From: Clostridia bacterium
GTDB taxonomy: Bacteria; Bacillota; DSM-521; Neomoorellales; SLTJ01
DNA: 44,697 nucleotides
Reading direction: 5' to 3'
Assembly: GCA_024653205.1 (NCBI GenBank)
Contig: JANLFO010000020.1
Span: 1-44,697, forward strand
The notes beneath the pieces are model-generated. The model saw only the letters and a program-made list of their open reading frames with translations. It made no database searches and had not been told where the DNA came from. The position numbers were made by a program, and so were the translations under genes. Each line of letters starts with the position of its first letter. Position 1 is the first letter of the stretch. Shown here piece after piece: positions 6,579 through 39,266 of this stretch.

Positions 6579-7242
6579 CGTTTCCGCTCCCCGCCACCAA
6601 GTTGCTCAGGTCCTTAAGCCGATCCTCGAGCCACTTATCAACCGGGCCGACCGCCTCCTCCCGCAGGGCCTGAGTCATGGCCCGCAACAAGCCGGCATGT
6701 TCCTCCGAGTACCGCCCCGACCGCTGCTCACTTTCAAAGCTTTCAATGATAGCTTCTAGTCCCCGCGGTTTCAGCTCGACCTGCGGCCAGGCCGCTGCTG
6801 CCGGGCCTATCAGTTTATGGATCAGGTGTCGGGCCCTCTGCTGGTCGCCCTCCTGCTCGCTGCCTTCCTCCTCATTACGCAAAACGATCAGGGAGAAATC
6901 CCCCCGGTGCCAGTCTTGATCGGCAGCCCACGTTTCTAGGATTTTGGTTGGCTCCGGGGCTCCGCCGGCATCGATAACGCAAAGCAGGGGGAGCACTAAC
7001 CCCACTTCTTCGGCCCGACCGGAGATAAAGCGTAGAAGCCGCCCAAGCGTGTCTTGAGTCCTACCGGCTGCGAGGGCCGTGCTCTCGCAGGCGATGTCCA
7101 CTGCCAGGGCCACGTCCGACAAGTAGAGGTCCCTGACCGTCAGGCCCGCGTTCTTACAATCCATGCGGTCCATGAGACGCCCAAGAAGCTCCGAGTCAAG
7201 GTTCAGTCTTAACCTCTCAACGTCGAACCCATTGTTGGTCAC
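6568..7242 (-). CDS. unknown middle protein of the SIR2/ATPase operon
   Basis: A 224-residue protein with no motif I recognise. It is mixed alpha/beta by eye, with hydrophobic stretches such as GLVLPLLCVIDAGG and FSLIVLRNEEEG and a helical C-terminus (KWLEDRLKDLSNLV). The GTG at 7242 is preferred over the longer reading frame because a GGTGGAGAG Shine-Dalgarno lies directly upstream, and the additional N-terminal residues are the frame-shifted shadow of the SIR2 gene. It overlaps the SIR2 gene by 26 bases and the ATPase gene by 11 bases. Its position between an effector-like gene and an SMC-like ATPase resembles the middle component of ABC-three-component conflict systems. That is an inference from order and size only. 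Confidence 0.75.
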   Translation of the reverse strand: MTNNGFDVERLRLNLDSELLGRLMDRMDCKNAGLTVRDLYLSDVALAVDIACESTALAAGRTQDTLGRLLRFISGRAEEVGLVLPLLCVIDAGGAPEPTKILETWAADQDWHRGDFSLIVLRNEEEGSEQEGDQQRARHLIHKLIGPAAAAWPQVELKPRGLEAIIESFESEQRSGRYSEEHAGLLRAMTQALREEAVGPVDKWLEDRLKDLSNLVAGSGNDGE

Positions 7243-36258: not shown

Positions 36259-37288
36259 ACTGAATCAGCTCGTCCGCCTGCTGCCGCAGTTCCTCGCTCA
36301 CCTCTACTCCCTGCCGGGCCGCGGCCTGGAGGTTGATCACGAAGTCCAGGTCCTCCAGGGCCTCCACCGGCGTGGTGGCGGGGTCCGCGCCCTGGAGAAT
36401 GCGCAGGGCCATGGCGCCGGTCTGGTAGCCCATCTTGTAGTAGTCGATGCCGTAGGTGGCCAGCCCGCCCCGCCGCACGGAGTCGGCGTCGCCCATGATG
36501 AGGGGTATCTTATTCTTCTCCACCACCTGGAGCACCGAGTCCAGGGCGGAAACCACGGTGTTGTCCGTGGCGATGAATACGGCATCCACCCGGCCCACCA
36601 GGGACTCGGCCGCCTGCTTGACCTCGGAGCTGTTGGTCACGCTGGCCGGCACGATCTCCAGCCCCAGCTTGGGCGCCACCTCGCGGGCGATGTTCAGCAC
36701 CACCTCGGAGTTGACCTCGCCGGCGTTGTAGAGGTAGCCCACCCGCCGGGCTTCGGGCCGGAACTTCTTCACCAGTTCCAGGTCCTTCTCCACCGGGATC
36801 ATGTCGGTCATGCCGGTAGCGTTGCCGCCCGGCTCCTCCAGGCTCTTGACCAGCCCCGCGGCCACGGGATCGGTTATGCCGGTGAACACCACGGGGATGT
36901 CCGGCCGGTCCCGGGTGGCGTTGACCGCCGCCTGGGCGGTGGGAGTGGCTATGGCCAGGATGAGGTCTACACCTTGGGCCACGAACTGCTTGGCGATGGT
37001 CTGGGCGGTGGCCATGTCGCCCTGGGCGTTGGCGTAGTCGTAGGCTACGTTCTTGCCTTCCTGGTAGCCGTGCTCGGCCAGGAAGTCCATGAAGCCCCGG
37101 CGCATGGCGTCAAGAGACGGGTGCTCCACGATCTGCATGATACCGATGTGAACCTGCTCCTCTGGCTGGGTCGCCTTTTCCTCCCCTGCCGCCGGGGCCG
37201 GGCCCGCCGGCGCCTTCTCGCCGCAGCCTCCTAGCGCCAGCGCCGCCAGCAGCAGGATCACCACTACCGACAAAACCTTCCTCGACAC
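36257..37288 (-). CDS. ABC transporter substrate-binding lipoprotein (TrpX-like family)
   Basis: A secreted lipoprotein of ~343 residues. Signal peptide VSRKVLSVVVILLLAALAL with lipobox LGGC (Cys at residue 22), a low-complexity Ala/Pro/Glu linker, then the ABC_sub_bind (COG2984) fold: HIGIMQIVEHPSLDAMRRGF, IATPTAQAAV, VVFTGITDPVAAGLV, VGYLYNAGEVNSE, VFIATDNTVVSAL, LATYGIDYYKMGYQTG. Relatives bind aromatic amino acids or other small ligands for import. The GTG at 37288 is favoured by GAGGAGG 8 bases upstream. No permease or ATPase gene follows; the gene ends in a terminator, so it is an orphan in this window. Confidence 0.9.
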   Translation of the reverse strand: MSRKVLSVVVILLLAALALGGCGEKAPAGPAPAAGEEKATQPEEQVHIGIMQIVEHPSLDAMRRGFMDFLAEHGYQEGKNVAYDYANAQGDMATAQTIAKQFVAQGVDLILAIATPTAQAAVNATRDRPDIPVVFTGITDPVAAGLVKSLEEPGGNATGMTDMIPVEKDLELVKKFRPEARRVGYLYNAGEVNSEVVLNIAREVAPKLGLEIVPASVTNSSEVKQAAESLVGRVDAVFIATDNTVVSALDSVLQVVEKNKIPLIMGDADSVRRGGLATYGIDYYKMGYQTGAMALRILQGADPATTPVEALEDLDFVINLQAAARQGVEVSEELRQQADELIQ

Positions 37289-37381
37289 CGGACATTCCTC
37301 CTCTCGTCTCGGACTCATCTGGTCTCGGCTCTTTACTATTCGCCGGCCGGAACGATTATCCTCCTCCGCGGCTTTAGGGCA

Positions 37382-37762
37382 TTAGCGGTCGGGCGGGCCG
37401 CCGAACCCCCTGCCTCCCGGGCCGAGGCCGTACGGCCCGGACGGAGAAAGCCCTTGGGCCAGGAGGTAGAGGCCCGCCAGGGTCACCGCGATCACCAGGA
37501 GGAAGAGCACCAGTTTGCCGCGCTGCCGCAAAAGGGCCCGGGTGGCGGCGCCGATCCACCGGGCGTGCAGGAGAAGGTGCAGCGCGACCAGGCCGCCGAG
37601 GACGTAGCCGGCCGCGGTGTGCAGCCATCTGAGGCTCACGGCCGACCCCAGCACGGACACGGAACCGTGCCCCCCGTGGATAAGGCCGGTGAGCAGGCAG
37701 ACCAGCCCGGCCACAAAGAGGGCGGTGTTGAGGTAGTAGTTGGTTTCTCGCACGGAATGCAT
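37382..37762 (-). CDS. small cytochrome b-like membrane protein (DUF4405 type)
   Basis: About 126 residues with three to four helices (YYLNTALFVAGLVCLLTGLI, WLHTAAGYVLGGLVALHLLL, KLVLFLLVIAVTLAGLYLL) and His residues on the helices (LIHGGHG, WLHTAAG, LHLLLHARW) placed as in haem b-binding DUF4405/cytochrome b561-like proteins. The C-terminus is Gly/Pro-rich and exposed. The ATG at 37762 has AGGGGGAG upstream. A partner (flavoprotein or FMN-binding protein) is not seen nearby, so its electron-transfer role is inferred from the fold only. Confidence 0.7.
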   Translation of the reverse strand: MHSVRETNYYLNTALFVAGLVCLLTGLIHGGHGSVSVLGSAVSLRWLHTAAGYVLGGLVALHLLLHARWIGAATRALLRQRGKLVLFLLVIAVTLAGLYLLAQGLSPSGPYGLGPGGRGFGGPPDR

Positions 37763-38146
37763 GCAACTCCCCCTACGAACCATACGCGGCCCTGCCGCGT
37801 TTTCATTCCGACCCGGCTCTTATTGTAGGGGGGCCGGCTGAGATGAACCTGAGGGAAAGGTGAGAACAGGCTGAGGCCGGGACCCGGCTCGTCTCTCACC
37901 GGAGGGGCTCTTCCGCTATTTGGCTCCAGGCAAAATCATCGGGCTTCAAGCGAGGATCGCCTCGATATCTTGACACTAAAGTATAATAGCTTGCCTGTTA
38001 TTATACTTTTCCCCCTGCAAAGTATAATAAACTAGGCCATTGCGAAAAACAACTCTTACGGTGAGAGACGGCGTGCTCGCCGGAGGCCGTGGACACAAAA
38101 AACGGGTCCGGGCAACTCGCCCGCACCCTGCAACCCTTGTCGTCTC
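37763..38146. other. intergenic region between membrane gene and tRNA cluster
   Basis: About 380 bases without a supported gene. Its centre holds three copies of AAAGTATAATA in alternating orientation (separate entry); the rest looks like ordinary GC-rich spacer. Confidence 0.5.
37978..38029. repeat. three AAAGTATAATA elements at about 20-bp intervals
   Basis: Copies are at 37978-37988 (+), 37999-38009 (minus orientation, a perfect inverted repeat with the first across 10 bases) and 38019-38029 (+). Each contains TATAAT. The AT-rich block stands out in GC-rich surroundings, just 3' of the tRNA genes. It could be a multi-site operator, overlapping divergent promoters or the end of a mobile element. 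Confidence 0.75.
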
Positions 38147-38222
38147 TGGTGAGCCATGGAGGATTCGAACCTCCGACCCACGGATTAAAAGTCCGTTGCT
38201 CTACCAGCTGAGCTAATGGCCC
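38147..38222 (-). tRNA. tRNA-Lys (anticodon TTT)
   Basis: 76 bases including encoded CCA. Acceptor GGGCCAT pairs with ATGGCTC (one G-T). The anticodon arm GGACTTTTAATCC gives TTT, and the T-arm GGAGGTTCGAATCCTCC is perfect. Third in a His-Gln-Lys transcript. Confidence 0.95.
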
Positions 38223-38227
38223 ACCTT

Positions 38228-38302
38228 TGGCTGGGGCGGCTGGATTCGAACCAACGCATCGCGGATCCAAAGTCCGCTGCCTTACCGCTTGGCTACGCCC
38301 CA
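38228..38302 (-). tRNA. tRNA-Gln (anticodon TTG)
   Basis: 75 bases with CCA. Acceptor TGGGGCG pairs with CGCCCCA, and the anticodon loop CTTTGGA gives TTG. Five bases separate it from tRNA-Lys. Confidence 0.95.
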
Positions 38303-38308
38303 ATGAAA

Positions 38309-38386
38309 TGGGGTGGGTGAAGGGATTCGAACCCATGGCCTCCAGGGCCACAACCTGGCGCTCTAACCAGCTGAGCTACACCCACC
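38309..38386 (-). tRNA. tRNA-His (anticodon GTG)
   Basis: Acceptor GTGGGTG pairs with CACCCAC. An additional G at position -1 (38386) faces the C discriminator, the tRNA-His identity element. The anticodon stem CCAGG/CCTGG encloses loop TTGTGGC. CCA is encoded. Confidence 0.95.
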
Positions 38387-38398
38387 ACGCGCAAGTAG

Positions 38399-38428
38399 AG
38401 TATAGCAGAGCCGCTTTTGCCGTGTCAA
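38399..38428 (-). promoter_or_regulatory. promoter of the tRNA operon
   Basis: Minus strand: consensus TTGACA (38428-38423), 18-base spacer, TATACT (38404-38399), about 13 bases before tRNA-His. Confidence 0.8.
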
Positions 38429-38476
38429 GCTCAGCTGCCCCGCGCGCCCGGAGCCGGCTACCCGCAGGTCCCTCGG

Positions 38477-38890
38477 TCATGGCTCGGGCGAAAGCCTTTC
38501 CCGCACGAAGGCCACCACTTCTTCCGCCAAGCGGGCCGCCTCTTGTGCCGCCTCCCCGGTGTAGACCCGTGCCGGGATGCTGTCCGGCAGCCCGTTGGGG
38601 TAGCGGGTAGGCACGTAGTATCCGTCCAGGATGGACCAACGCTTGACCCTTTGGGCGAACTCCGGCTCCCACCGGGCGGCCTGGTGGCAGAGCCGCTCCA
38701 GAGAGTGCCCAAGCACTACTTCCTCGCCCTGAGCGTAGATGAAGGCCTTTACCGCCTTTTCTCCCACCTGTTGGGCCAGGAAACAGGCCAGGTGATAGCC
38801 CCCGCGCGCGGCCAAATCTTTGGTCCAGCGCAAGTCCTCCTCGGCCTGGAGCAGCCAGCGCCGGCCCTCTTCAAATGGGGTTCTTCTCAT
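38477..38890 (-). CDS. HEPN-domain protein
   Basis: A 137-residue all-helical HEPN protein of the PF05168 type: EEGRRWLLQAEEDLRWTKDL, YHLACFLAQQVGEKAVKAFI, GHSLERLCHQAA, LDGYYVPTRYPNGLPD. The YYVPTRYP segment is characteristic of the subfamily paired with minimal nucleotidyltransferases. The classical RX4H RNase motif is not obvious, so catalytic activity is uncertain. Its ATG overlaps the nucleotidyltransferase gene by 20 bases. Confidence 0.87.
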   Translation of the reverse strand: MRRTPFEEGRRWLLQAEEDLRWTKDLAARGGYHLACFLAQQVGEKAVKAFIYAQGEEVVLGHSLERLCHQAARWEPEFAQRVKRWSILDGYYVPTRYPNGLPDSIPARVYTGEAAQEAARLAEEVVAFVRERLSPEP

Positions 38891-39266
38891 AGAGGACCAC
38901 TTCCTTCGCCAGGAGGTGCTTGAAAAACGGGGATTCCTTGAGGGAGGCCATTTCTTCCGCCGTATAGCAGAACAAGTCCACGTCTACCGGCAGGGCCAGC
39001 AGGGGATAAAGCCGGCGCAGGCGCTCTACAAAGGGCAGCTCGGTGCGCATCACTACCAAAAGGTCGAGGTCGCTCCTGAGATCGGCCCGCCCTTCGGCGT
39101 AGGAGCCCACCAGGCTTACCCGCTCCACTTCCTCGAGGGCGGATAGCGCTTGCACCGCCCGCCGCAGCGATTCCGCCAAGAGCCGCCGATACCGCTCGCG
39201 CTCTCCGGCCAGCCCTTGGGACCCGGCCAAGGCAACTCCGCCCGTTTTTCGTCCCTTGCCGGCCAA
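38871..39266 (-). CDS. minimal nucleotidyltransferase (HEPN partner)
   Basis: A 131-residue nucleotidyltransferase: VSLVGSYAEGRADLRSDLDL then LVV holds the GSX-DXD site, and PVDVDLFCYT the third acidic residue. It forms an MNT/HEPN TA-like pair with the downstream gene. The first ~20 residues (MAGKGRKTGGVAL...) look non-conserved; a later start is possible, for instance just before ERERYRRLLAES. Confidence 0.86.
   Translation of the reverse strand: MAGKGRKTGGVALAGSQGLAGERERYRRLLAESLRRAVQALSALEEVERVSLVGSYAEGRADLRSDLDLLVVMRTELPFVERLRRLYPLLALPVDVDLFCYTAEEMASLKESPFFKHLLAKEVVLYEKNPI

Follow-up and report, generated by a model that had tools for sequence, protein, structure and literature searches.

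A candidate orphaned SoFic-type operator array next to a tRNA cluster in a Clostridia bacterium

Described Fic operators and the array in the window

SoFic proteins are AMP-transferases that act against phages and carry a winged HTH at the C-terminus. Wild-type Sofic is toxic under leaky expression, and its activation upon infection is called elusive (PMC12249575), while DNA binding by SoFic was undemonstrated as of 2023 (PMC10628234). CccR, a Fic-HTH regulator of Yersinia pseudotuberculosis, represses its own promoter via two inverted 10-bp repeats, as evidenced by reporter, gel shift, and footprint experiments (PMC9755527). Our literature search for Fic operators yielded CccR only, and a description of a SoFic operator was not found. 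A search on the array words described below, which covered titles and abstract openings, returned no paper about such an operator.

The window, by which we mean the whole stretch of 44,697 nucleotides that was analyzed, contains three copies of the 11-mer AAAGTATAATA in alternating orientation. They are placed beyond the 3′ end of a tRNA-His/Gln/Lys cluster on the minus strand (38147-38385), and the features of this region are as follows:

37978..37988, plus strand: half-site 1, exact match to AAAGTATAATA
37999..38009, minus strand: half-site 2, exact match to AAAGTATAATA
38019..38029, plus strand: half-site 3, exact match to AAAGTATAATA
37978..38029, minus strand: whole array, reading TATTATACTTT-20-AAAGTATAATA-21-TATTATACTTT, the layout of the putative fic operator at locus L137
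38097..38128, minus strand: hairpin with a T run, resembling a terminator, downstream of tRNA-Lys and between the array and the tRNA unit, seen by eye

Exact matching recovered the three alternating copies, the start-to-start distances of 21 and 20 bases, and the perfect inverted repeat that the earlier note had described, and TATAAT, as had also been stated, lies without mismatch within every copy. Half-sites 1 and 2 form a perfect 11-nt inverted repeat with 10 bases between the arms, and half-sites 2 and 3 form a perfect 12-nt inverted repeat with 9 bases between them. The block is indeed AT-rich within GC-rich DNA, with a GC fraction of 0.39 in the 100-base interval over the array and 0.48-0.50 in two overlapping intervals, versus 0.57-0.77 in the remaining 100-base intervals from 37000 to 39000. 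With up to one mismatch to the 11-mer permitted, the window contained these three sites only, compared with a mean of 0.14 and a maximum of 2 in 100 shuffles. The genome-wide scan that had been proposed found the exact 11-mer three times in the whole assembly (2,455,280 bases in 51 contigs, 98.81% complete), always in the array, and the backwards-read 11-mer used as a control had 0 occurrences there. A chance origin was rejected on the basis of the window shuffles and the absence of the 11-mer elsewhere in the assembly.

For the present analysis, we defined a class of SoFic-type operator arrays as at least three alternating 11-mers with spacings of 18-22 that sum to 39-41. The window array, with 21 and 20, has this geometry, and arrays elsewhere reach six sites (L117). 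The likeness to CccR consists of a Fic protein with a C-terminal HTH and of inverted repeats in its own promoter. In the CccR operator, 26 bp separate two inverted 10-bp AGATAATCAT repeats, whereas the present arrays consist of three alternating 11-mers of other words with 8-11 bp between them, and the window array thus differs from it in both word and spacing. The tested proteins encoded beside such arrays match SoFic (PADLOC; for L137 also PDB, where SoFic entries are 3eqx, 3zcn, and 9tc4), whereas the window is without such a gene.

Other features were observed in the neighborhood. A small membrane-protein gene occupies 37382-37762 on the minus strand, and upstream of it a CTCA motif was seen by eye to recur four times at intervals of exactly 11 bases (37839-37875, minus strand), an arrangement that we liken to response-regulator binding sites. 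Overlapping HEPN and nucleotidyltransferase genes just past the tRNA cluster (38477-39266, minus strand) resemble a HEPN-MNT toxin-antitoxin system. The promoter/terminator scan of 37300-38500 did not list the hairpin at 38097..38128. The array is flanked by a 12-bp perfect inverted repeat, CGTCTCTCACCG (37890-37901 and 38059-38070), which sits inside a 23-nt, 78% inverted repeat and was weighed as possible element ends; inverted repeats as long were found in 7 of 234 window stretches, and it is therefore only mildly unusual.

Arrays at SoFic-type fic genes

The exact inverted pair, scanned with gaps of 6-14, was found in 29 stretches of the genome collection and in 2 of the viral contigs. The gap was 10 in 11 of the 32 exact pairs, four of these 11 being look-alike rabbit-gut repeats (L053, L060, L061, and L072) and two sharing one locus. 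Three- or four-site alternating loci were L050, L069, and L070 (21/19/21), L051 (21/19), and the viral contig L046 (22/19). A Fic gene adjoins the exact-word array in L050, where it lies downstream, and in L069 and L070, where it lies directly upstream; tblastn found no Fic in the 5-kb sequence of L051 or the 4-kb sequence of L046. At L070 (1770-4249), the fic gene was seen by eye to overlap the end of a putative hsdS-type restriction specificity gene, with a four-site array directly behind fic.

The proteins of L137, L070, L050, and L117 have Fic_N and Fic domains. All five array-side proteins tested matched the PADLOC SoFic model (E 6e-110 to 5.5e-124), with L137 at 5.5e-124, and the L137 protein matched SoFic in the PDB with an E value of 5.6e-40. 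The four proteins tested against the NCBIfam SoFic equivalog cut-off (550 bits) fell below it, L137 scoring 184.2 bits. An alignment of ten C-terminal segments gave a single region that keeps RN..F....Y, and Pfam gave weak HTH matches in the C-terminal region of two of four proteins.

To obtain loci by protein sequence, Fic relatives were sought in the class to which the L070 genome belongs (present in 63 of 274 genomes; the best 30 of 66 listed places fetched) and in the phylum of the window (38 of 398 genomes; the best 30 of 39 matches fetched), and the set also took in four viral loci. An alternating array of any word was found from -200 to +60 of the 5′ end of the fic frame in 14 of 61 SoFic-type loci, a count made with a looser threshold and wider spacings chosen after a stricter first look, and which L137 entered after its array was already known. 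The rest of the 61 loci (222,581 bases) contained one array, in L136, downstream of fic, and no array arose in any of 20 rounds in which the 61 start regions were dinucleotide-shuffled. The stricter earlier test found an array in 6 of 32 fic loci versus 1 of 62 control loci, the single positive control being L093, itself fetched by motif; five wrong spacings gave 0, 0, 0, 1, and 0, and local shuffles gave 0 in 20.

Excluded from the 61 were L103 and L104, which had been reached first via the array, L149, which is the same as L137, and L139 and L150, which represent one gene with its upstream region cut by the contig end. L138 and L140-L148, which are the remaining Fic loci from the order of the window genome, were also excluded; they have no array, apart from an N artefact in L146. 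Of 17 later loci, three reached the threshold (L179, L181, and L185, all viral), and none of 10 plasmid loci did. The 47 of 61 loci with no array at the threshold, the 10 plasmid loci, and the arrays downstream of fic in L069, L070, and L136 count against the operator reading.

The words vary by locus, including AAAGTAAAATA, ACTGCAAATAT, ATCCTCAAATA, and others, with arrays like AAAGT[AG][TA]AATA in L116, L117, L122, and L128, while the geometry is constant. Because the words differ and the geometry stays, the DNA-binding protein of each locus is favored over a common host regulator. The operator array with sites on the same face of the DNA that the earlier note had considered gained ground in that sites of alternating orientation, spaced by about two turns, are found near SoFic fic starts far more often than in controls; the binding itself, which we attribute to the winged HTH of SoFic acting on the half-sites, is inferred from CccR. 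In L117 (1383-1493, six sites) and L122 (2389-2440), fic stands with its own array as if inserted in a tryptophan operon, between genes that we take by eye to be trpF and trpB. The fic reading frame is split in two in L122. A search for the Citrobacter fic gene in E. coli genomes found nothing.

Origin of the window array

A same-layout copy exists in the order of the window genome. At L137, TATTATACTTT occurs at 1037, followed by an inverted site 20 bases on (one mismatch) and a third site 21 bases further, 22 bases before the ATG of a SoFic-type gene. The minus strand of the window and L137 are alike in word, order, and 20/21 spacing, and AGT continues both. A Fic protein of some kind was found in 9 of 22 genomes of the order, and one genome from the window's own family has a Fic protein 70% identical to that of L137, cut at the contig edge. 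The assembly of the window genome gave no Fic match, so that the window array, unlike that of L137, has no SoFic-type fic gene starting nearby.

The window array is probably an orphaned SoFic autoregulatory operator whose fic gene is missing from the assembly, and since no SoFic protein was found there, it would most likely be a relic; possibly, the gene lies in the unassembled 1.2% of the genome. At an intact locus, a dimeric Fic protein would bind the alternating half-sites via its C-terminal winged HTH, and sites about two helical turns apart would align the bound units on one DNA face. By covering the stretch ahead of the start codon, these units would hold the toxic AMP-transferase at a low level of expression. 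In the window, a fic gene would formerly have followed the array on the minus strand and since been lost. A candidate for its remnant is the following:

37896..37949, minus strand: possible fic-start stub, with a TTG start 28 bases after the array, encoding LKPDDFAWSQIAEEPLR and then a stop; compared with MKPENF of L137

The correspondence of KPDDF in the stub to KPENF in L137 was reached by 26 of 20000 shuffles and by 5 of 2412 real stretches. A gapped alignment was non-significant (425 of 2000 shuffles), and the minus-strand stub was absent among the tblastn matches listed. On the plus strand, the peptide at 37893-37940 (LSPEGLFRYLAPGKII) also resembles a Fic start in a lax tblastn search (E 0.79, with unrelated matches equally good). 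This peptide and the stub overlap, so that no more than one of them can be real, and the L137 layout would require the strand opposite to that of the peptide. Since the opposite-strand peptide also resembles a Fic start, such a match arises easily, and the stub is only suggestive of a remnant fic start.

An unlikely alternative is that the array arrived with a phage or a mobile cassette and at no time served as a fic operator in this genome, its geometry being that of a phage element between unrelated genes. Inverted pairs of the sister word AAAGTAAAATA, with gaps of 8-11 allowed, were found in 62 viral contigs (L196-L257; gap 10 in 46, 11 in 15, and 8 in 1), whose flanks represent 19 contexts, while the letter-reversed word gave 0. 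A third site with at most two mismatches at the right distance was found in 27 of the 62, versus 0 at control distances, and a looser array score gave three sites in 44. tblastn found no fic in the stretches searched, which for many were only part of the contig. The exact word occurs in the viral contig L046, and degenerate forms occur in its relatives L099, L100, and L102. Arrays without fic (L051, L046 and its relatives, L092, L093, and the 62 viral contigs) count against the fic-operator reading. The arrival of the array with a phage or cassette is itself opposed by L137, where the exact word in the matching 20/21 layout precedes a SoFic gene within the same order, and by a BLAST search of phage and plasmid records, in which the region had no match.

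The genes beside the viral AAAGTAAAATA arrays vary and include tail sheath and terminase genes, and eight of ten array neighbors had no match in a PHROG scan. In some gut phages, near-identical units stand between different genes, which also favors a cassette. The mobile regulatory cassettes of T4-type phages known as PeSL, in which a promoter plus stem-loop is found between different genes in related phages, are similar to some phage arrays in being short units between differing genes. They differ in that the present arrays are alternating 11-mers, for which any role in phages is putative. The phage locus L238 has a winged-HTH match (E 1.1e-4). For a different Fic word, ACTGCAAATAT, no inverted pair turned up in viral contigs, and this speaks against a general link between phages and SoFic.

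It also seems improbable that a different regulator of the genome uses the array as a functional operator, for example at the membrane-protein gene (37382-37762). Three mismatch-free copies are unexpected in an old relic, and a minus-strand gene does follow the array. The start of this gene is, however, more than 200 bases away, a regulon should have more sites than the single array that holds every exact 11-mer of the genome, and a Fic winged-HTH profile, in a search lacking a positive control, had no match in the genome.

Opposed promoters, which the earlier note had suggested, or overlapping ones would be favored by the perfect TATAAT in each copy but are very improbable, since the sigma-70 scan of 37300-38500 detected no hexamers paired like those of a promoter (16-18 apart) within the block, its sole promoter-like site preceding the tRNAs (38428-38399), and the same spacing and alternation recur with the TATAAT-less words ACTGCAAATAT and ATCCTCAAATA.

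An array belonging to the tRNA cluster was rejected. All 22 genomes of the order have a tRNA match to the region, whereas only the window genome has the exact inverted pair, and the whole tRNA-match loci L016-L044, scanned at the stricter threshold, contained no array. The tie between the array and the tRNA genes thus looks incidental. The block is absent from the window locus in relatives, an outcome that the earlier note had taken as contrary to its reading, although the same array type does occur elsewhere in the order (L137). The His-Gln-Lys order is kept in most fetched tRNA loci of the order; the window cluster consists of these three only, while in most fetched relatives it is extended on one side by tRNA-Gly and tRNA-Arg, and in many on the other side by tRNA-Leu.

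A known RNA family was rejected, as Rfam at the gathering score matched three tRNAs in 37000-39000 and nothing in the array block. A dispersed repeat was likewise rejected, because a BLAST search of the window genome with the region returned only the region itself and matches to the tRNA part. RNA folding compared with shuffles gave z scores of -2.99 on the plus strand and -1.67 on the minus strand; a hairpin was set aside because the spacing recurs while the words change.

The core site of a tyrosine recombinase has inverted arms of 11-13 bp, 6-8 bp apart, and is accompanied by the recombinase. The outward-facing pair is 9 apart in the window and 8 in several other loci, and recombinase genes lie near the pair in L047, L092, and L209. 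A viral scan for this pair with gaps of 6-10 found 7 contigs, 6 of them with gap 8, L094-L096 being near-identical. In L047, from a Clostridia genome, an exact pair (6833-6864) stands directly before a tyrosine-recombinase gene.

Implications for SoFic regulation

The arrays at fic starts suggest that the SoFic gene family has its own recognizable DNA switch. Such an operator class would be a testable DNA target for how SoFic is quieted and triggered, and operators of this kind could reveal fic loci, both present ones and those that have been lost. It is conceivable, although we consider it doubtful, that a modular SoFic operator of alternating half-sites has been copied by some phages as a decoy or is read as an infection signal; as decoys, the phage copies would pull the SoFic protein off its own promoter. 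The phage copies of the array may thus lead to an experiment on phage sensing or counter-defense.
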